Below are positions 8,619-19,688 of a stretch of DNA of 64,000 bases, piece by piece (the stretch's first letter is position 1; every line of letters starts with the position of its first letter). The notes below the pieces were generated by a model. It was not told the DNA's origin. It worked only from the letters and a program-made list of their open reading frames with translations, and did no database searches. The translations under genes and the position numbers were made by a program. Source of the stretch: Haloplanus sp. CK5-1 (GTDB lineage Archaea > Halobacteriota > Halobacteria > Halobacteriales > Haloferacaceae); the NCBI RefSeq assembly GCF_037201915.1, contig NZ_CP147505.1:2108001-2172000 (forward strand), read 5' to 3'.

Positions 8619-9653
8619 ATGGCAACGCCTCCGGACCGTATCGACGACACTCTCGCGGGCTGTTCGTCCGTTCTGCTCCTCGCATCGTCGTCGGACACCG
8701 AGGCGGACGCCTGTGTCACGCTGTTGACCCGATACGCACCGGAACGGACGAACGTCCTCGGAGCGACCGTCTCCCGGAGTCCGGGGGATCGGTTCGCACT
8801 CTGGCGACGCGAGGTTCCGGAGGGGGTCCCCAAGCGCGCGGCCATGATCGACGCCGGCCGTGGCGTTCGGACGCGGACGGAGCGCGACGTCGGTGACCTC
8901 CCGCCGGAGTTCACGCTTGATCGCCTCCCCGAACACGCCGAACCCGTCGACCTCGGCATGGCTCTCTCGCGACGCCTCGGCAGTTGGGAGTCGACACCGG
9001 AGTCGACGGCGCTCTGTCTGCACTCCCTGACGGCGCTCGTCGGGGCCTTCGACCGCGAGTCGGTCATCTCGCTGGTCGACAGCCTGAACCGACTGTGCGA
9101 GACGGTCGACGCGGTCGGCCACCACCACATGGACCCCACGGCACACGACGACGAAACCGTCGCGATGTTTCGCCCACTGTACGACGCGGTGATCGACGTC
9201 AACGCCGAGGACGGGTGGACCGTGACGCTGGCCGACACCGAAGCCGACGCCCCCTCCTTTCGGCGTTCCACGGCACCACCCGGCGGGGCGGCGAGCACCG
9301 ACCCGGACCGGCCCGAAACCGTTCCGATTCCCTACTCCTTCGATCAGACGCTCGACCTCATCTCCGACGCACGGCGGCGGACGCTCCTCTACTGGCTGAA
9401 AGACAGGGGAAGCGGGACGGTAGCGTTCGACGATATCGTCGAGGCGGTGGTGACACGCGAGACGTCGATTCCGGCCCGGGAGGCTCCCGAATCGCGGGAT
9501 TCGGTCCGCGTGTCGCTCGCCCACGCCCACCTGCCGAAACTCGCCGACCTCGGCATCGTGGAGTACGACCCCGACGGCGCCACCGTCCAGTACCACGGCA
9601 ACCCCGCGCTCGAATCCTTCCTCAGATACGTCGAGACGATAGAACTGGGCTGA
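8619..9653 (+). CDS. RecA-like (DUF7504-type) plus winged-helix (DUF7344-type) regulator
   Basis: This 344-aa haloarchaeal protein appears to have two parts. The N-terminal half (about 1-200) has the degenerate RecA/KaiC-like layout of the HTR-like proteins: SSVLLLAS, then EADACVTLLTRY and ALCLHSLTALV. The C-terminal part from about 235 (PYSFDQTLDLISDARRRTLL) is a winged-helix domain. Such proteins are thought to be signalling or transcriptional regulators, with no defined target. The start follows a TATA-like element at the expected spacing. Confidence 0.75.
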   Translation: MATPPDRIDDTLAGCSSVLLLASSSDTEADACVTLLTRYAPERTNVLGATVSRSPGDRFALWRREVPEGVPKRAAMIDAGRGVRTRTERDVGDLPPEFTLDRLPEHAEPVDLGMALSRRLGSWESTPESTALCLHSLTALVGAFDRESVISLVDSLNRLCETVDAVGHHHMDPTAHDDETVAMFRPLYDAVIDVNAEDGWTVTLADTEADAPSFRRSTAPPGGAASTDPDRPETVPIPYSFDQTLDLISDARRRTLLYWLKDRGSGTVAFDDIVEAVVTRETSIPAREAPESRDSVRVSLAHAHLPKLADLGIVEYDPDGATVQYHGNPALESFLRYVETIELG

Positions 9654-10726: not shown

Positions 10727-11042
10727 ACGAACGAACGGACGGTCCGTACCCACATCCGTCTGTAGCTTATGCGTATAACCCGCTTATATCCCCCCGCTGG
10801 CACGGTACCACGGACACACCGTCCGACCGCCGGACACGTTCCCCGGCTCCCGGACGAAGTCCCTACCGGACCTCGGAGGAACGGAGTCCCCCAGTCCGTG
10901 TGTGATCTGTCCTGAACGGGAGGTTATATCTCGGAAGAACTGGCCCTCGCCGTCGCTATCCGTTGATCGACGTCGAGTGGAGTTTTGCGAGGGAAGAGCG
11001 CTCCGCGAGCGTCTTCCGCATCTTCCGGCGAAGCCGGAGCGA
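10727..11042. other. Intergenic space with no gene seen
   Basis: Between the possible small gene and the tRNA-Leu 3' end I find no convincing coding frame or RNA. It contains two TATA-like stretches (near 10786 and 10923) and, directly after the tRNA, GC-rich inverted sequence that could help end the tRNA transcript. Confidence 0.4.
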
Positions 11043-11126
11043 TGCGAGGGAAGGGATTTGAACCCTTGGACCTCTACAGGAGCGGATCTTGAGTCCGCCG
11101 CCGTTTCCAGGCTTGGCTACCCTCGC
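11043..11126 (-). tRNA. tRNA-Leu (CAA)
   Basis: An 84-nt tRNA. The acceptor stem GCGAGGG/CCCTCGC, D arm, anticodon stem GCGGA/TCCGC with loop CTCAAGA, long class II variable arm and T arm with TTCAAAT loop all fold. The anticodon CAA is at 11089-11091, and the long variable arm fits leucine. Discriminator A is at 11043 and no CCA is encoded. It is the chromosomal target of the adjacent mobile element, so its 5' half lies inside the attachment repeat. Confidence 0.95.
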
Positions 11127-11131
11127 ACGCG
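11087..11131. repeat. Left attachment site (attL), within tRNA-Leu
   Basis: A 45-bp segment covering the tRNA from 5 bases upstream of nucleotide 1 to the end of the anticodon loop. It matches 19644-19688 in direct orientation with only two adjacent differences (AG at 11109-11110 against GA at 19666-19667, in the D loop). This is the signature of site-specific integration into a tRNA gene. Confidence 0.9.
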
Positions 11132-11445: not shown

Positions 11446-12006
11446 CTACTCTATCGGTTGAACCTCACTGGGCAAGGGCAAATTCAGGAGATACTGCGGA
11501 GCGACGTGGTAGTTGTAGTGTCCGTAATTGAGCGACTTCCGAGGCTCTCGGTTGAGTAGCATCTCTTTGGTCGCTCCGCCCATCATCTCGACAGTGGTTT
11601 GCTTGTTGTTCTCGGGAGGTCCATTCGGAAGGTGGCACTGTACGTAATATTCGGCATCGACGCTCTCTGTCTCCACAATCAGGTCGGGATTCTCAGCTGG
11701 GGAACACTTGACATCGACTTCTACCGTTTCATCGGAGGTCTCCCGCTCAGTAAACCGAACACGAAAGTCTACACCCCCGTCTGTCCGAGAGAACGTTTCT
11801 GTATCGACTTGAAGGTCGTAGTAGGTGGCAAATGCCATCTCCCCCAGAACACCGATGAAGTGGCGGTTGTGAGCTTCATGCCCCCATCCCTGCTCGCCCG
11901 CATCTCTGTACCAGTCCTCATTATCTTCGAACGACTCCATTCGCTCTTGTGTGATTTGTCGCCCCCGGCGGACATAGCGCGGCGTCACTTCAACGCGGAC
12001 CGGCAT
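11446..12006 (-). CDS. PD-(D/E)XK nuclease-like protein
   Basis: This 186-aa protein has the layout of a small PD-(D/E)XK enzyme. E56 sits in GVLGEMAFA, D80 in GGVDFRVRF, and D98-x-K100 in VEVDVKCSP on the next strand. The C-terminal third (from LLNREPRKSLNYGH) is not recognised. I chose the internal ATG at 12006 (MPVRVEVTP). It is the last gene of a same-strand run behind two RAMA-like proteins, separated by 154 bp. A nuclease role is inferred from residues only. Confidence 0.65.
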   Translation of the reverse strand: MPVRVEVTPRYVRRGRQITQERMESFEDNEDWYRDAGEQGWGHEAHNRHFIGVLGEMAFATYYDLQVDTETFSRTDGGVDFRVRFTERETSDETVEVDVKCSPAENPDLIVETESVDAEYYVQCHLPNGPPENNKQTTVEMMGGATKEMLLNREPRKSLNYGHYNYHVAPQYLLNLPLPSEVQPIE

Positions 12007-12160
12007 TGGATGCAGCCAGGGCCTCAGCAGCCACAACGGTTTCGACGGAGCTGATAGCAGATTCGGTTCGTGTGAATCCCATCGCAGTCAGGGAACTACC
12101 GGGGGCGGAGCGAGAAACCGGTTTGTGTATCTCGTTTGACGCTCGCTCTGCAGTAGCCTA

Positions 12161-12499
12161 TCACGATTTCCAGTCTGGAAGTTCCCTGATAGGCACCCAC
12201 TCGCCGTCTTCGTTCTGATACTCCCACCAGTCCCATCCACTGTAGCCGTATGGGTCTTCACGGGCGTCTGCTCCTCTGTGGAATCTGTCAGCCTCGCGGG
12301 CGGCACCAGATGGTGTTCGGGTCGTCAATTCTGAGTCATCTGGGCCGGAATCACCAGGGACAGCAATCCGTTCATCCTTGATGTGAGCAGTCACTTCCTC
12401 GTCGCTGTACTCCCCGCGCTTGTAGACGTGCCGGAGCGTCGTGCCGTTGTCTAATTGTCCGAGTTTCGAGTTGAGGTGCTGGGGCATTTTTTCTCTCAT
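12161..12499 (-). CDS. RAMA-like domain protein, short paralogue
   Basis: 112-aa protein made almost entirely of one domain, paralogous to the C-terminal domain encoded just upstream. Shared elements are LxxGTxxRHxYxRGxYS, RTPSGAAREAD and a C-terminal YSGWDWWEYQNEDGEW. This pattern (G-T-x-x-x-x-Y, SPSxAA, NGWxWW) resembles the RAMA and DUF2924 families; RAMA domains are proposed readers of modified DNA near restriction systems. The start (MREKMPQHL, 12499) is 5 bp after the neighbour's stop, so the pair is co-transcribed. Confidence 0.65.
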   Translation of the reverse strand: MREKMPQHLNSKLGQLDNGTTLRHVYKRGEYSDEEVTAHIKDERIAVPGDSGPDDSELTTRTPSGAAREADRFHRGADAREDPYGYSGWDWWEYQNEDGEWVPIRELPDWKS

Positions 12500-12504
12500 C
12501 GTAA

Positions 12505-12963
12505 TCACTCCGCGAGGTCGTTGATTGGTTCCCAGTCGCCGTCCTCGGTTTCGTACTCCCACCACGTCCAGCCGTTGTAGCCTTCGCCTCGTGCATCATC
12601 TCCACGAAGTTTTTTGTCGGCGACCCGTGCGGCTCCAGTGGGACTTCGTGTCTCCTGCGTATCACCCTCAACCGAGAGCCGTCCTCCACGGACTGTTGCT
12701 TCAACCTTCTTGCCGCTGTAGTCGCCGCGCTGGTATCGGTGGCGGACAACAGTCCCATCAGGCAACTGACTCAGCGCGGAATTTTCTGATTCTGGCTCCG
12801 AAGTGTTGTGTGTTGTCGCTCGGTTGTCACGGTCCTCAAGGGCCGCATTTTTGTCTACGTGCGCGATTACGCGAGCGAGCACGTCATTCCACGATTCGTC
12901 TCGATTGCCGAAGCGGCCAAGTTCCTGGTACAGGTCGTCGGCCACCTTGATGCTTCGCGCCAT
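12505..12963 (-). CDS. RHH-antitoxin-like plus RAMA-like fusion protein
   Basis: 152-aa two-domain protein. Residues 1-35 (MARSIKVADDLYQELGRFGN) look like the ribbon-helix-helix segment of haloarchaeal VapB/DUF7557-type antitoxins. Residues 65-150 form a RAMA-like domain (LPDGTVVRHRYQRGDYSGKK, then RSPTGAARVAD and YNGWTWWEYETEDGDW). The start at 12963 has the clear RHH opening, and the AT-rich 13000-13040 region upstream fits a promoter. It heads a three-gene same-strand run with the shorter paralogue and the PD-(D/E)XK-like gene. No PIN or other classic toxin partner is present. Confidence 0.65.
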   Translation of the reverse strand: MARSIKVADDLYQELGRFGNRDESWNDVLARVIAHVDKNAALEDRDNRATTHNTSEPESENSALSQLPDGTVVRHRYQRGDYSGKKVEATVRGGRLSVEGDTQETRSPTGAARVADKKLRGDDARGEGYNGWTWWEYETEDGDWEPINDLAE

Positions 12964-13152
12964 ACCTACCACTATACACCCATAGACATTAAAACTTATC
13001 CTGTACTTAGTCACTATCATGATTTTAAGATTTAGGAGAAGTATTTTCCCTGGGCTCACGTTCGCTGTTTAGATAATCGCCGGATAACGAGCCGACGGGG
13101 TTGATAGCAGGGTTCTCTCAGAAGAAACAAGATTAATTATTTCAAGTGAACT

Positions 13153-13593
13153 ATGCCTAATTCGCATATGGATGTTGGTCTCGTAAGTTGTACCAAGAGC
13201 AAGCGTGAGCAGGCCGCGACGCCCGCCGACCTCTATATGGAATCTGCGTTCTTCAGGAAAGCCCGGGAGTACGTCGAAGCAGACCACGACTCGTGGTACA
13301 TCCTCTCCGCGAAACACCACCTGCTCGACCCAGACGGACCACCTATCGAACCCTACGATAAAACGCTGAGCGGGGCTCCGGTCGGCAAGAAACGAGAGTG
13401 GTCACGAACAATCTACGACCAGTTACAGCAGCAGGGGCTGCTCGCTGACGGCAACAGACTGGTGTTCCACGCTGGCCGCGACTACTACGACGAACTACTC
13501 CCTCTCCTCGATGATGCGCCCGTCGATACGGAGACGCCGACTGATGGACTCCAGTTCGGGGAAACGCTCGCGTGGTACAACGACCGGATTTAG
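13153..13593 (+). CDS. DUF6884 family protein
   Basis: 146-aa protein with the family hallmarks GLVSCTKSKRE near the start, DLYMESAFFRKAREYVE, WYILSAKHHLLDPDG and EPYDKTL. The family is loosely related to YaaA-like proteins and is often found on mobile elements; its biochemical role is not established. The ATG at 13153 is used, but the ATG at 13168 (MDVGLVSC) is equally plausible and is better placed after the TTAATTA element at 13133-13140. Its stop overlaps the stop of the convergent GIY-YIG-like gene by 4 bp. Confidence 0.75.
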   Translation: MPNSHMDVGLVSCTKSKREQAATPADLYMESAFFRKAREYVEADHDSWYILSAKHHLLDPDGPPIEPYDKTLSGAPVGKKREWSRTIYDQLQQQGLLADGNRLVFHAGRDYYDELLPLLDDAPVDTETPTDGLQFGETLAWYNDRI

Positions 13594-14303
13594 GCGAATC
13601 CAGGCATCCTGGTGATGTACCCCTCCAACGTATCCAGAAACTCTGGCTGATACTCTTCGCCGACGTGGTTGATGTTCCACAGGCCGGACTGCATGATGTC
13701 TGTGACCGGACTGTGGTGGCCGAGCCATTCCTGATTACGGGGGTCGATAGATTCCTTGTCGAAATTGCTCACCAGTGCAATCGCGTTCTGCTCAACGTAG
13801 GCGCGGTCACTCTCTGGGCTCGGCTCGTCATCTATATCGACCCAGAGAAACGGTAAGTCGCGGATGTAGTCGCTCACTTGTCGCTCCATCTCCAATTCCT
13901 CTAACCTCAACTCCCGTCCAGCACTTGACCCGACACCCCACTCGGGATATCTGTCTTCGAGGCCCTCCCGCTCAACAATGGCTTCCCCGACACGCTTCCG
14001 GAACACCGACCCTCGGTGGTTGCCTCCGCCCTCATAGGTGCCGCGTTGTGCCCCTCGATGCGTTCGCAGCCGGTCCCACAGCGAGGTGCTGCTCCCTTCT
14101 GAGACCGCGTGGGTCCCGACACGCGTCAGCCGTAACTGGTCTACGGCCGCCCGAGATTCGTCGGGATGGAAAAAGAAGTAGACACCTCGGTCGGGCCAGC
14201 GCATCCGACCGTCGCAGTTCCCGAGCCGTCTCTTGCCTCCAACCGTCGCCTCCAGGTCGTCGAGAAGCGAATAGAACCGGTCGAGGTCCTCGGGTCTGGC
14301 CAT
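13590..14303 (-). CDS. GIY-YIG nuclease-like protein
   Basis: 237-aa protein with a recognisable GIY-YIG core. G40-V-Y42 (RGVYFFF) is followed by R61-V-G63 (LTRVGTHA) and the helix LWDRLRTHRG, which supplies the catalytic-type R78 and supporting H82. The C-terminal half (YIRDLPFLWVDIDDEPSPES onward) is an unfamiliar extension. It is convergent with and touches the DUF6884 gene, a pairing that suggests a shared module. Nuclease activity is inferred from the motif only. Confidence 0.65.
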   Translation of the reverse strand: MARPEDLDRFYSLLDDLEATVGGKRRLGNCDGRMRWPDRGVYFFFHPDESRAAVDQLRLTRVGTHAVSEGSSTSLWDRLRTHRGAQRGTYEGGGNHRGSVFRKRVGEAIVEREGLEDRYPEWGVGSSAGRELRLEELEMERQVSDYIRDLPFLWVDIDDEPSPESDRAYVEQNAIALVSNFDKESIDPRNQEWLGHHSPVTDIMQSGLWNINHVGEEYQPEFLDTLEGYITRMPGFA

Positions 14304-14339
14304 ACCGTCACTCCGGAAGCACGCGGATTATTCGTTTCC

Positions 14340-14430
14340 CTCACCAGACGAGTCATCAAATCGCCAACTCTCACGTATAGGGGTACAATACGTCGGAGTT
14401 GGTGGTTTCTCAGATGTGAAGTTCGCTCAC
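14340..14430 (-). pseudogene. Decayed inverted copy of the winged-helix gene 3' end
   Basis: The 14350-14410 stretch is an imperfect inverted copy of 15547-15600, the end of the winged-helix gene. On the minus strand it reads ETTNSDV then diverges and stops, against EEITNSDVQDTNTW in the intact gene. Frame breaks show it is not functional. The rest of the gene-free space 14304-14648 has no recognisable gene. Confidence 0.5.
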
Positions 14431-14648
14431 CACGTCGAGTAGGCCTGCGTCGACGTGCTACCAGCATCGGAAGCCACAGTCTCGGATTGTGGGTTACTCG
14501 TCTATCCCCGCTGTGTGTTGCGGTTCTGATAGCAGGAGGCTTCTTGGGCACCAAAATGAATCACCCGGCGGAACGGGAGGGCCAGTCAGATGTTGTGACC
14601 ACCTACAAATCTGATTGACTTCACGGTCTAATGGCCAGCTTGAGTTGT

Positions 14649-15302
14649 TTAGTTTGATTTCATGTGATTCCAGATAATGTAGAGTAGACAACCAGTAGCA
14701 CCAATAACAATAATCAAGATGGAAATTTGAATGAAAAATATCTCTTTTGGTGAGAACAGAATAGGGTTTGGAGCTGCGAGAAGGAATAACGACGGAGTGA
14801 AAACACCAACAAGGAGTAAAACTCCGGTAGCAATTAGTGTGGGTTTGAGAGGGGAATTATAATCGACTAACGTTTCTTGTCTCCCCTTTTGAATATCGGA
14901 TATCGCACGAGAAGCGAAGTTTCTGCAAAGAATAAAACAGGACTCCAAATCATCTCCAGGCTTGTCTACATTGTTGTCATTTAACCAGTCTTCGAGATTC
15001 GATGACGAAGGAAGAATAGAATTATACATGTACCCTGTACCAGCTGAGTGCCCCGTGATTTCTTGATACAGTTTTTCCGTTGCATCCGAATGACTCATAT
15101 TGGTCATAAGCCATTCTGCACTGTCGGTTATCGCATCCAATTGGTCCCCAGAAAGCGTATGGTAATCGCGGAGATTACTTGAAGAAAGCTGACACTCCAA
15201 ACGATAAACGTGTGCTTGGATAACTTTTTGCCATTCATAATTGTCTGAGCTATTTATTATTTTTTTCAGGTCCCCGGCGTCAAACTCTACTGGGAGAAGC
15301 AA
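14649..15302 (-). CDS. AT-rich two-helix membrane protein
   Basis: 217-aa protein of unknown family. A mostly helical, polar N-terminal part of about 150 residues is followed by two strongly hydrophobic helices near residues 153-177 and 188-211 and a short basic tail (NHMKSN). Codon use is strikingly A/T-rich compared with everything around it, suggesting recent transfer from a different background. The only available start is a TTG at 15302, so the true N-terminus is uncertain. A soluble-domain-plus-membrane-anchor plan is common among defence effectors, but nothing here proves that. Confidence 0.55.
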   Translation of the reverse strand: MLLPVEFDAGDLKKIINSSDNYEWQKVIQAHVYRLECQLSSSNLRDYHTLSGDQLDAITDSAEWLMTNMSHSDATEKLYQEITGHSAGTGYMYNSILPSSSNLEDWLNDNNVDKPGDDLESCFILCRNFASRAISDIQKGRQETLVDYNSPLKPTLIATGVLLLVGVFTPSLFLLAAPNPILFSPKEIFFIQISILIIVIGATGCLLYIIWNHMKSN

Positions 15303-15311
15303 CGCGCCATC

Positions 15312-15626
15312 ATGGAGTATCTACAGGAGAATCCCGGTGCGACCAGTCGGGAGATTGCAGAGGGTGTGGTCGAGGAGAACGACAGTATCGAGTCCTGTTC
15401 GAAAGAGCACGTTCGGACTACTCTCCAAGACCAACGGGACCGAGCGAATGTCATCATTCGAGAGGGCGAGGGCCCCTATGGAGCCGACGTTCATCGGTGG
15501 ACAGGAGAGGACACGCGTACCGCTGTGGACCTGACTCCAGAAGAAATCACCAACTCTGACGTACAGGATACCAATACGTGGGAGTTGGCGATTCGGGAAG
15601 CAAGTGTCCCCAGCGAGAAGGGATAA
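15312..15626 (+). CDS. Small winged-helix protein
   Basis: 104-aa protein whose N-terminal half reads as a winged helix: IMEYLQENPGATSREIAEGV, then HVRTTLQDQRDRANVI. The frame stays open and protein-like upstream of the ATG (VKLYWEKQRAI) without a start codon, which suggests the gene is a 5'-truncated remnant of a longer one or uses an unusual start. It diverges from the AT-rich membrane protein, and its 3' end recurs inverted near 14350-14410. Confidence 0.5.
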   Translation: MEYLQENPGATSREIAEGVVEENDSIESCSKEHVRTTLQDQRDRANVIIREGEGPYGADVHRWTGEDTRTAVDLTPEEITNSDVQDTNTWELAIREASVPSEKG

Positions 15627-15997
15627 GGCCCTACTTGGGAGGTGAGCTTCGCACGGGTGGTGCTCGATACAGATGGTTGGAGATTCAGTCTCTGATGTCG
15701 CTGGTTCGGGCTCCGAGACCTGTTGTGGGTTCGATGTGTCAGACCGTCTTCCGGACAGAAATCCGTCGTCTAATACAGTGTTCAATACCGGAATCCAATA
15801 ACCCAAAATAATATAAATGACTGGTAGACCTGGATGTGGTAGTATATTTAAACCTCTTCTGAAAGACCGCTGACAATCAGCTCTGACATGTTACCGTTAC
15901 GAGAGGGACTGGAGACAAAGCACTCTGGACCCTGGATGAAATGGCCTTGGTCCCCGTCGACGTAGCTACTTTTACGAAGCCCCTCAAGCGACGAACT
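15627..15997. other. Intergenic space inside the element
   Basis: No confident gene. A 42-codon frame at 15673-15801 (+, starting MVGDSVSDVAGSGSETCC) has haloarchaeal-like codon use but no recognisable family. AT-rich stretches near 15805-15860 could hold promoter elements. Confidence 0.3.
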
Positions 15998-16567
15998 ATG
16001 TCTCAACCAAGACTCGGTGAACAGATGGTCGGAGCGTATCTCCGGCTTATCAACGGCTGCGACCTCATTTCGTATAACCAGCGGTCGAGAGAGGAAGGAC
16101 AGCAGGTAGAACTTGACGTTCTTGGTGTCAAATCGACCCACAGAAGACAGTCAATCTACGCATGTGAGGTCGTGACGCATCTGAACGGCTCACTCTACTC
16201 AGGCACACCCGATGAGGAAAGCTGGTGGAGCGAGTTCGGCAACGACAGCTACCAACATTCTCTCGAACGACTCTGGCACAAATTCAACGCAGACTACGAC
16301 TTGCTCACCGAGGGGTTCGACGAAGATGATGAGTTCCATCTCCAATTTTGGTCTCCATATGTGTCACAGGGCTATCTCACGGACGGACTCGCAGAGCTAC
16401 AGCAACAGTTCGACCAAGAACACGACGAACAAATTGAATTGGTCATAAACGGTGATTATGCAGACTGTATAGACGAACTACGCCAGAAAGCCTCAGAAAC
16501 AACCAAACGATATAACGACACAGCATTTCGGTTCCTCCAGATACTCGAACACCTTCGAGACGACTGA
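15998..16567 (+). CDS. PD-(D/E)XK-like fold protein lacking the usual lysine
   Basis: 189-aa protein. The N-terminal region reads like a nuclease-fold core: E8 in RLGEQMVGAYLRL, D40 in VELDVLG, then E57 in YACEVVTHL, where an E-x-K motif would normally place lysine but valine is found. The remaining 120 residues are helical and acidic (FGNDSYQHSLERLWHKFNAD). The ATG at 15998 (MSQPRLGEQM) starts at the conserved-looking region. Either it is a divergent nuclease or an inactive binding protein; confidence in the fold is moderate. Confidence 0.5.
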   Translation: MSQPRLGEQMVGAYLRLINGCDLISYNQRSREEGQQVELDVLGVKSTHRRQSIYACEVVTHLNGSLYSGTPDEESWWSEFGNDSYQHSLERLWHKFNADYDLLTEGFDEDDEFHLQFWSPYVSQGYLTDGLAELQQQFDQEHDEQIELVINGDYADCIDELRQKASETTKRYNDTAFRFLQILEHLRDD

Positions 16568-16671
16568 CTGGGTGCTGTGGTACAAGTTGAAGTAACAGAG
16601 CGTGTCATAGAACTCTTCACACACTATAGTCAGTTTGATTACTATTATAGTGGGTTATTAGCTTAGAAGTA

Positions 16672-16688
16672 CGTGCACTCAGTGCACG
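16672..16688. promoter_or_regulatory. 17-bp palindrome, downstream of the RHH gene
   Basis: CGTGCAC-TCA-GTGCACG, a perfect 7-bp inverted repeat with a 3-bp spacer, 14 bp past the stop codon of the ribbon-helix-helix gene. It matches the palindrome upstream of the same gene in all but the spacer, as expected for an operator bound by an RHH protein. Confidence 0.6.
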
Positions 16689-16702
16689 GAGTTCAAAACC
16701 AG

Positions 16703-16903
16703 TCAGAGATTTCCCTTTCGTCTCCGAATAATGATTTCTCGCACCCGTTCAGCGTGGTTCGTCTCGGAGTGAACGAACGCTGTGAGGATGGCTTCGACGG
16801 TCTCGGAGCGGCTGGCTCCGAGGTCGTCACACTCAGCGACCAGTTCATCCACTTCTCGCACGATTTCCTCGTCAACAGCGACTCCGAACTTTTCTTTTGC
16901 CAT
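16703..16903 (-). CDS. Ribbon-helix-helix (CopG-like) regulator
   Basis: 66-aa protein (MAKEKFGVAVDEEIVREVDE, then CDDLGASRSETVEAILTAFV) with the strand-helix-helix pattern of CopG/RHH repressors and a basic C-terminal tail (IIIRRRKGNL). The start at 16903 gives the canonical RHH length. It is bracketed by two copies of CGTGCAC-n3-GTGCACG, one in the promoter region and one just downstream, which suggests autoregulation and control of a neighbour. Confidence 0.8.
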   Translation of the reverse strand: MAKEKFGVAVDEEIVREVDELVAECDDLGASRSETVEAILTAFVHSETNHAERVREIIIRRRKGNL

Positions 16904-16924
16904 AGCTAAAACATCTAAGAACAG

Positions 16925-16941
16925 CGTGCACCAAGTGCACG
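16925..16941. promoter_or_regulatory. 17-bp palindrome, upstream of the RHH gene
   Basis: CGTGCAC-CAA-GTGCACG lies 22-38 bases before the start codon at 16903, overlapping the expected core promoter. Binding there would repress the gene. Confidence 0.65.
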
Positions 16942-17025
16942 ACGGTTTCAATTTGTCTAAGCTGATTCAGCGAGCCATGTGAACTCTTCTATGACACGCT
17001 CGTAACAGTCAATAAATAAGCAAAC

Positions 17026-17271
17026 ATGGGCGTTACAGCGACTGGTTCAGACTTCGATGAGGCGCTTGAGAGCTGTATCAGCAAAAAATACGGAGACAAG
17101 TACCGGCCAGCCAGTGCCTCACGACTCAATCCAAGTGGTTCTCAAGACGACGAGGGAAGATATCGTGTGAAACTTATCGGCGGAATGAACGAGGATAACA
17201 AGTACGTAATAGTTGAAGCCTTTCGAATCTCTGCGGGATGGGAGATAGAATTTCTTAGAACGATGAATTAG
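17026..17271 (+). CDS. Small hypothetical protein
   Basis: 81-aa protein (MGVTATGSDFDEALESCISK, ending AGWEIEFLRTMN) of no recognised family. It looks like a compact alpha/beta protein. It starts just outside the right inverted repeat that bounds the RHH cassette and has no same-strand partner. Confidence 0.5.
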   Translation: MGVTATGSDFDEALESCISKKYGDKYRPASASRLNPSGSQDDEGRYRVKLIGGMNEDNKYVIVEAFRISAGWEIEFLRTMN

Positions 17272-17461
17272 TTATTAGTTTCAAGCCTCACGGAGTCGTA
17301 ATCGAAAGAAGTGCGGCCTGCTATCAGCAACGGTTTCCCGGTCGACGACGCATCTCAGCACCATCTGGCTGAAACAGGCCCCGGTGTGAAAGAGGCCAAG
17401 AGGGGGGAGGGGGAAGGTCATCGACACCTGAAGAGGGGCGAAATATCGGGGGTAGCCTTCT

Positions 17462-18307
17462 TCACTCCTCAAACTCGTCGAGTTCAGTGTCCTCGTCGAA
17501 CTCGCATCGCCACGGGTCATCCTCGGTTGTCGGTTCTACGGCGTGGTCTATCTCTTGGTCGGAGAACGCTTCTTCCGGCTCACGGTAGGCGTAGTCAGGG
17601 TGGTCGTACTCAAGCACTCGTCGCCACCACTTCTCGCCGAGAGCCGTTTCTCTCTGCGGCCCTATTCGCGCACCGTGGAGTCTGAAGTGTGGCCAGCCCC
17701 TTCCCCGACCGGCCCCCGGATAGCTGTGTTTGTCGGCGACGATTGAGCCGATTTTACCATCTGGGTCGAGTTCCTCGTCACTGACCGGAGGGTCGTACAG
17801 CGGCTCGTGGTCGTCGTCCTGTTTCGCTCGCGCTCGGTCCTCCATCGTGTTGCTGAAGTAGCCGTTGGCGTGTGTGGTGGCACGGCTTGACTGGGCTCTC
17901 GCAGCTACCAGGGCAGCCGCAATAGCACAGAGTCGCCGAACCCAGGGGTCGTCTGCGTATCTGTTCTTAGCCAGTTTTTCGTAGCGAAGGACGTGCTCAG
18001 TCGCTTCGTTGCCCGCTACCAGGTCTTCGATGCAGGCGAGAACAACGCGGTTCCAGTAATGGGTCTCGTAACCCTCCCCGGAGCGGACGAGTTCCCACGC
18101 CGCAAACGCAGCCGTCTCATCATCTGACCGACGCACCGCCTTCTGAAACAGGCTCGAAACCACATCGCGCCGGTAGCCTCCTTTCGTCTCATACCATGGC
18201 ATCTCTTCACCGAAGTCGTTGGTCTGTTCCTCGTTGCTCTCGTCGTCGTCCGGCTCTTCGAGTTCGCCGTCATCGTTGAACCGGAACTGGTCGTGGTTGT
18301 CACTCAC
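17462..18307 (-). CDS. Stand-alone RarA C-terminal-domain-like protein
   Basis: 281-aa protein. After an acidic N-terminal tail of about 40 residues, the region 45-145 resembles the C-terminal oligomerisation domain of RarA/MgsA/WRNIP1 clamp-loader-like ATPases: SSLFQKAVRRSDDETAAFAA, then YWNRVVLACIEDL and a later AAALVAARAQSSR segment. No AAA+ ATPase domain is present. The C-terminal part contains a Gly/His/Trp-rich stretch (YPGAGRGRGWPHFRLHGARI) and ends acidic. It follows the integrase on the same strand, about 93 bp away. A role in replication or repair of the element is possible. Confidence 0.55.
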   Translation of the reverse strand: MSDNHDQFRFNDDGELEEPDDDESNEEQTNDFGEEMPWYETKGGYRRDVVSSLFQKAVRRSDDETAAFAAWELVRSGEGYETHYWNRVVLACIEDLVAGNEATEHVLRYEKLAKNRYADDPWVRRLCAIAAALVAARAQSSRATTHANGYFSNTMEDRARAKQDDDHEPLYDPPVSDEELDPDGKIGSIVADKHSYPGAGRGRGWPHFRLHGARIGPQRETALGEKWWRRVLEYDHPDYAYREPEEAFSDQEIDHAVEPTTEDDPWRCEFDEDTELDEFEE

Positions 18308-18400: not shown

Positions 18401-19552
18401 CTAACCCATTCTATCGAGGGCGTCTCGTCTGTCGCTTACTGGAGCCGCGTCGTACTTCATCGTGGTCTCGGGTCGGAGATGGCGAAGTTGTGCCTGCGTT
18501 GCCGCGAGGTCCTCTTCCCGAGTCATGTACGTTCCAACGGAGTGTCGAATGGAGTACCAGCTAACATCACGACGGGTGGTATCAATCCCAGCGATATCAC
18601 AGAGTTTTCGAAGAAGCCGCCCGAGTTGCTTAGAGTCGTAAGGCTTCTTCTTTTGCGTGAGCCAGAGTGCGTCGGTATCATCGTATTCAGGATAGTGTTC
18701 CCGTTCCTGAATCCAGCGGGTGAGAGCCTTCGCTGTCTTCCGTCGGAGGGACACCTCCCAATTGGCCTCGTTCTTTGCGGACTCATCCTTCGGAATACGG
18801 AGTACGGCGTTGTCGCTATCCACCCACTCAGTTCGTGCGTTCCCTACTTCGACTGGGCGTAGGCCAGCATCAAGGCTGGTCCAGACCAGCGACGTGACTT
18901 TCCACGAGGGGATATCTGCCCAGTCATCTGTGCCAACATCGTCGACATTCTTCTCGTGGTACTCTGCTACCAGTGGTTTGAGACGCTCCCGCCGCTCTTC
19001 GTCGGTCTGGACAGTCTTATACGAGGGAATCGTTCCGTACTCAAGCGCAGTTTGGCGTAACTTCCGCCTTTCGTCTTCCTTGAAAAAGTCCTGGGGCTTC
19101 TGCGAGTTCGAGACGGTGAAAGCCCTGTCTGGCTCCCACTCCGGCTCTCCGAACTCGTGGTGTCGCCACTTGAAGTAGCGTTTCAGCGCGTGGAGTGTGT
19201 GGTGCTTGTGCGACTGACTCTTGTCGGAGTACGCAAGTCCCTCGATGTACTGGTTAGCGTGCTCGATAGTCATCACGGGCACGTACTCGTCTGCTTTCTC
19301 CCAGACCGCGCGTTCGAAGTAGCTGACGCGGTACATCGTTCGCTTGGCCGTCGCCTGCGAATATCCCTCGATGTCCCGCGTGTCTTTACCTTCGAGCAGG
19401 AGCCATTTGGCGAACTCCTCTCGACGCTCACGGTAGTCGAACTCCTGCTTGGAGTCGAGCATCCGGGAAGCGGCCTTGGGGACGAGCGGGAAGGTTATTT
19501 CTACGGTTCGTTGCTCGAATGGACTCAAATCGTCGTCGGATTCGTTCAACAT
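18401..19552 (-). CDS. Tyrosine recombinase (integrase)
   Basis: 383-aa site-specific recombinase of the haloarchaeal phage-integrase type. The N-terminal core-binding SAM-like domain (about 70-150) is followed by the catalytic domain. Box I arginine is in DAGLRPVEVG. Box II reads SWYSIRHSVGTY with Tyr in place of the first His, as in many haloarchaeal integrases. The segment LRHLRPETTMKYDA supplies the second His/Arg and the nucleophilic Tyr near the C-terminus. It starts about 90 bp from the right attachment site and presumably catalysed integration into tRNA-Leu. Confidence 0.92.
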   Translation of the reverse strand: MLNESDDDLSPFEQRTVEITFPLVPKAASRMLDSKQEFDYRERREEFAKWLLLEGKDTRDIEGYSQATAKRTMYRVSYFERAVWEKADEYVPVMTIEHANQYIEGLAYSDKSQSHKHHTLHALKRYFKWRHHEFGEPEWEPDRAFTVSNSQKPQDFFKEDERRKLRQTALEYGTIPSYKTVQTDEERRERLKPLVAEYHEKNVDDVGTDDWADIPSWKVTSLVWTSLDAGLRPVEVGNARTEWVDSDNAVLRIPKDESAKNEANWEVSLRRKTAKALTRWIQEREHYPEYDDTDALWLTQKKKPYDSKQLGRLLRKLCDIAGIDTTRRDVSWYSIRHSVGTYMTREEDLAATQAQLRHLRPETTMKYDAAPVSDRRDALDRMG

Positions 19553-19643: not shown

Positions 19644-19688
19644 TCTTGAGTCCGCCGCCGTTTCCGAGCTTGGCTACCCTCGCACGCG
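19644..19688. repeat. Right attachment site (attR), tRNA-Leu 5' half
   Basis: Direct repeat of 11087-11131 with two adjacent mismatches. It contains only the 5' half of the tRNA (acceptor 5' strand, D arm, anticodon loop) and cannot make a tRNA. Because the original sequence upstream of the tRNA should now lie beyond 19688, this copy marks the ancestral tRNA 5' end. Confidence 0.9.

Follow-up and report, generated by a model that had tools for sequence, protein, structure and literature searches.

An integrative element of 8.6 kb, bounded by tRNA-Leu repeats and located in the 64,000-nucleotide stretch of Haloplanus sp. CK5-1 DNA analyzed here (the window), houses genes for a ribbon-helix-helix (RHH)–RAMA fusion, a stand-alone RAMA protein, a nuclease-like protein, and the PDC-M57A/B pair. 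These genes recur in other haloarchaeal genomes, so the set is more than a chance assembly, and at roughly even confidence we interpret it as a mobile cassette that is accessory to haloarchaeal R-M islands. As we read them, the accessory genes belong to haloarchaeal R-M and BREX-like islands and also travel separately; because their relatives lie mostly beside DNA-methylating restriction systems, the set reads as detachable accessory parts and not as a wholly new defence.

A first-pass annotation of this DNA had placed the genes in a mobile element, and the window does contain an integrase together with flanking direct repeats at a tRNA gene, the combination that marks an integrative element:

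11041-11127, minus strand: tRNA-Leu (caa), the integration site
11087-11131, no strand assigned: attachment repeat, 5′ half of tRNA-Leu, 43/45 bases identical to 19644-19688
17462-18307, minus strand: 281-aa protein beside the integrase, conserved together with the integrase in genome G070
18401-19552, minus strand: tyrosine integrase (Pfam Phage_integrase, E 3e-17), beside the right repeat
19644-19688, no strand assigned: attachment repeat at the far element end

The 45-bp direct repeats lie 8557 bp apart with two mismatches, and G+C content falls from 0.6-0.68 outside the element to as low as 0.43 inside. The low G+C interval 14303-17462 holds several unassigned ORFs, among them those at 14652-15302, 15312-15626, and 15941-16567, and a small RHH gene at 16703-16951. 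The exact element ends and the neighboring PDC-M57A/B pair are both part of the setting, and neither appeared in the first-pass annotation. No methyltransferase or helicase remnants could be found by tblastn in the window between 10 and 21 kb.

A second tRNA-Leu element of ~8.6 kb, in G070, encodes a homologous integrase and likewise carries RHH–RAMA, RAMA, and nuclease genes. There the methyltransferase adjoining RHH–RAMA is internally deleted, with residues 1-57 joined in frame to residues 1319-1388, so that the N-terminal 57 and C-terminal 70 residues are retained (L035 11426-11797; G070:C1:851428-851796); in this element, therefore, loss of the R-M core is evident. A full-length relative of the deleted methyltransferase is located just outside the G070 tRNA-Leu element. 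Elsewhere in the Haloplanus genome, a related type IIG-like methyltransferase is found at 1.32 Mb, about 0.8 Mb from the window element, and a stand-alone RAMA gene (~89 aa) at 934 kb (L043 around 9302-9549; G000:C1:934301-934549), a few kb from a methyltransferase of 782 aa; G029, G070, and G103 also encode comparable single-domain RAMA proteins. A search of the same genome for a PLD/SNF2 helicase relative returned none at E<=1e-50.

The first-pass annotation had called three ORFs on one strand, and all three are found on the minus strand where it placed them; they are listed here with the features of the fusion gene:

11446-12006, minus strand: P0003, PD-(D/E)XK-type nuclease-like gene, 186 aa, with invariant motif residues
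12161-12499, minus strand: P0002, stand-alone RAMA gene, 112 aa, 5 bp downstream of the fusion gene
12505-12963, minus strand: P0001, RHH–RAMA fusion gene, 152 aa
12514-12780, minus strand: RAMA domain part of P0001 (residues ~62-150; pLDDT ~80)
12850-12954, minus strand: ribbon-helix-helix head of P0001 (residues ~4-38; family profile matches)
12989-13011, minus strand: conserved promoter-like block upstream of RHH–RAMA, reading ACTAAGTACAGGATAAGTTTTAA on the minus strand

Description of P0001 as an RHH head fused to a RAMA-like domain agrees with the model fold of its RAMA half and with the profile matches across its family. In a Pfam search, a kind of check that the first-pass annotation had proposed, P0001 matches RAMA over residues 80-148 (E 3e-4; 21.1 bits, under the 35.2-bit cut-off) and VAPB_antitox over residues 4-38 (E 1e-3; 20.3 bits, under the cut-off of 27.9), and no Pfam profile, RAMA included, matches P0002. 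Among eight members of the RHH–RAMA family, VAPB_antitox is matched by six and DUF7557 by five (E<0.1), the Halalkalicoccus jeotgali homologue exceeding the DUF7557 cut-off (26.6 vs 25), and the RAMA profile is matched by four. P0002 was said to be the RAMA-like domain alone, and it is indeed 49-50% identical to the C-terminal RAMA half of P0001.

Structure prediction, another check proposed, favors the RAMA assignment. The AF2 model of P0001, built from five sequences, reaches a pLDDT near 80 over the RAMA half but only 45-57 over the RHH half, where confidence is low. When residues 57-152 of the model were compared by VIA-align with 994 solved chains, the RAMA domains of MPND (7ydw_B; Z 8.6, 3.0 Å over 77 residues) and CcrM (6pbd_B; Z 8.2, 3.2 Å over 76 residues) ranked first and second, and the next chain reached a Z of only 4.3. 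These structures surfaced through the VIA-align re-ranking; the plain Foldseek ranking gave the RHH–RAMA model no significant match, and a RAMA sequence profile found nothing in the PDB. We take the RAMA fold of P0001 as established at the level of the model. Upstream of RHH–RAMA, the promoter-like block is kept in G070 and G075, and a looser version persists in G120 and G244, whose sequence farther upstream diverges; inspection of nine upstream regions by eye detected no palindromic operator. RHH–RAMA had no match in IMG/VR or phage records.

The residues of P0003 singled out earlier, E56, D80, and D98-x-K100, are all present at those positions and invariant in 29 homologues (20-47% identity, one of them from a viral contig), where the only invariant columns are G52, E56, D76, G78, D80, D98, K100, and G143. 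Judged from the alignment, this is the pattern expected of PD-(D/E)XK enzymes. The AF2 model of P0003, made with one relative, yielded no usable fold (pLDDT 31), and weak Pfam matches were to DUF6998, DUF5843, and DUF4365. The sole PDB match of the sequence profile, filamin (gelation factor), was judged spurious. Alignment of the P0003 profile with Hjc or DUF4365 by hhalign gave no match, a comparison without power because the control, Hjc against DUF4365, also failed. The sole viral homologue, a distant one at 774-1253 of viral contig L148, retains GxxGE, DGGxDF, and DVKT motifs. Another homologue, in G100 (G100:C1:2303115-2303618), is interrupted by stop codons, with seven TGA in the matched stretch, and is probably a decayed copy. 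A 322-aa family without a Pfam match adjoins the nuclease gene in G004, G106, G242, G244, and G369 (L119 6581-7549), and an apparent relative of this family lies near a helicase in G342. The P0003 gene is separated from the P0002 gene by 154 bp, and is therefore not clearly in the same operon.

On the other side of RHH–RAMA, adjacent genes match both component models of the PADLOC candidate defence system PDC-M57:

13153-13593, plus strand: PDC-M57A, DUF6884 (YaaA-like), divergent from RHH–RAMA (Pfam DUF6884 E 1e-38; PADLOC PDC-M57A E 1e-29)
13590-14303, minus strand: PDC-M57B, 237 aa (PADLOC PDC-M57B E 2e-75)

DUF6884 is a distant relative of the DNA-binding protein YaaA (PMC11701544). PDC-M57B has no Pfam match; by eye it looks like GIY-YIG, a resemblance without profile support.

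Ten further haloarchaea proved to carry RHH–RAMA relatives, making 11 loci with the window, two of which have short flanks (Lum.70, on a 3-kb contig, and SW_7_65_23, which ends about 1.1 kb downstream). A second RAMA gene is coupled to RHH–RAMA in six of the 11 (the window, G070, G075, G120, G244, and SW_7_65_23), at a spacing of 2-5 bp in several, and the carriers include an integrative element and plasmids. The restriction-system flavor of the earlier annotation is upheld, the relatives lying mostly beside methyltransferase, helicase, or type I R-M genes. Specifically, i) a large adenine methyltransferase or type I R-M gene is found within about 8 kb of RHH–RAMA in seven of the nine other informative loci, namely G070, G075, G120 (Halorubrum lacusprofundi pHLAC01), G244, Halalkalicoccus jeotgali (both plasmids of which carry RHH–RAMA beside a large adenine methyltransferase or R-M genes), G294, and SW_7_65_23 (where the evidence is an HsdS (Methylase_S) fragment), and no R-M gene was found near RHH–RAMA in Halobacterium sp. 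DL1 or Halobaculum saliterrae; ii) among 16 strong nuclease loci, seven have the nuclease within about 8 kb of a PLD/SNF2 helicase and six within about 5 kb of PDC-M57B; and iii) the nuclease lies beside HsdR-type genes in G369 (HsdR and HsdM confirmed by Pfam) and G281 (by sequence resemblance). From genome-wide base rates, the rough binomial chance is <1e-6 per association, a significance inflated by defence-island clustering and shared ancestry because the calculation assumes independent, randomly placed loci.

The compact three-gene cassette of the first-pass annotation fares less well. In the neighborhood survey, RHH–RAMA, RAMA, and nuclease co-occur within 4 kb in the window and two other genomes (G070 and G244), but in those two they are never contiguous. 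Only three of the 11 RHH–RAMA loci show linkage between nuclease and RAMA genes; the nuclease accompanies a helicase without RAMA in G051, G071, and G308, and G120 and G075 have RHH–RAMA but lack the nuclease nearby. More often, each of RHH–RAMA and the nuclease adjoins a methyltransferase, helicase, or type I R-M core in the absence of the other, which weakens the idea of the trio as a self-contained system. The fullest arrangement, in G244, brings methyltransferase, helicase, PDC-M57B/A, RHH–RAMA, RAMA, a 563-aa gene, the 322-aa gene, and the nuclease together within 14 kb, and shares with the window the divergent layout of RHH–RAMA and PDC-M57A.

If the gene set is an accessory cassette, the two RAMA proteins would jointly bind double-stranded DNA, and the RHH head would dimerize and contribute binding to an operator or a target. 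The nuclease, alone or together with PDC-M57, would cut DNA so marked and in this way reinforce the restriction half of an R-M island or take its place. Because the element carries no methyltransferase, the window copy would act either alone, on DNA in the recognised state, or with a methyltransferase encoded elsewhere in the genome. We infer from their families that RAMA binds DNA and that the nuclease cuts it, and from linkage in only three genomes that they cooperate; the general tendency of defence genes to cluster could yield the same associations without joint function.

Indeed, the RHH–RAMA/RAMA pair, PDC-M57A/B, and the nuclease could be separate defence or R-M accessory units housed in one element without cooperating, a reading we regard as a serious alternative though probably not the correct one: the units do occur apart in other genomes, and 154 bp intervene between nuclease and RAMA genes in the window, but in three genomes a stretch of 4 kb holds all three, and the window and G244 preserve the same divergent arrangement of RHH–RAMA and M57A. 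We are more doubtful that RHH–RAMA and RAMA constitute a C protein-like regulator of R-M genes which senses methylation and times restriction, leaving the nuclease as a separate effector. The head of antitoxin/repressor type, the coupled pair divergent from M57A with its conserved promoter-like block, and the frequent position of RHH–RAMA just downstream of a methyltransferase or helicase would all suit such a controller, whereas the nine upstream regions reveal no evident palindromic operator and copies persist in elements without an intact methyltransferase.

The cassette may also act on its own in a type IV-like manner. The strongest version of this idea, in which a stand-alone multi-gene modification-sensing restriction system split from methyltransferase islands and then spread between haloarchaea on tRNA-Leu elements, with an RHH–RAMA/RAMA heteromer reading the state of the DNA and recruiting a separate PD-(D/E)XK nuclease (together with PDC-M57A/B), strikes us as improbable. 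It is highly improbable that the RAMA proteins protect the element itself by coating or marking its DNA against host restriction; carriage of RAMA genes by an integrative element and plasmids would fit, but most copies lie inside restriction islands beside methyltransferases, an atypical location for anti-restriction genes. Still harder to credit is a toxin–antitoxin pair in which RHH–RAMA would be the antitoxin to a RAMA toxin: the head does resemble VapB-type antitoxins, and the two genes are 2-5 bp apart in several loci, but the domain of the second protein is also present in the first, and the second has no known toxin fold and is missing from about half of the loci. We retain the mobile accessory cassette as our working interpretation, and suggest that, once the methyltransferase is lost, a restriction island's accessory genes can travel alone.

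Whether RAMA domains read 6mA is debated, the MPND RAMA domain binding DNA with no preference for 6mA (PMC9963953). With small separate RAMA proteins that occur naturally as a pair and in linkage with a nuclease-like gene, methylation reading by RAMA would become directly testable, and Haloferax volcanii, in which GATC-methylated plasmids have been used to test Mrr (PMC6471742), provides a ready host.

Location of RAMA near methyltransferases and its fusion to nucleases are already known. A search of open full-text papers returned none that names both the RAMA domain and ribbon-helix-helix, and the RHH–RAMA fusion and paired-gene arrangement therefore appear undescribed in the papers covered by that search. 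Over 76-77 residues the window protein shares its predicted fold with the RAMA domain (Pfam PF18755) as seen in the CcrM C-terminus (6PBD) and MPND (7YDW), structures described in PMC9963953, and like that family its relatives lie beside adenine methyltransferases in many loci; the known domains are part of a methyltransferase (CcrM) or deubiquitinase (MPND), whereas the window RAMA is below the Pfam cut-off, fused to RHH, and paired with a second RAMA gene. The window locus has both components of the PADLOC candidate PDC-M57 in common with that system, but its RAMA and nuclease genes match neither component model. Relatives of the cassette sit inside islands of type IIG methyltransferase with HKD/SNF2 or BrxHII-like helicase, both core genes of which are missing from the window element. 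DUF3780–RAMA in BREX-related type 2 systems (PMC12839542) similarly places RAMA as an accessory reader in a methyltransferase/helicase locus, with DUF3780 as the partner domain instead of RHH. Finally, RAMA–Mrr(–NTPase) fusions and GIY-YIG–RAMA fusions have been reported and proposed to be type IV enzymes that depend on 6mA (PMC11037411); they share the combination of RAMA and nuclease with the window, where in contrast reader and nuclease are encoded by separate, loosely linked genes, most relatives of which carry a methyltransferase.
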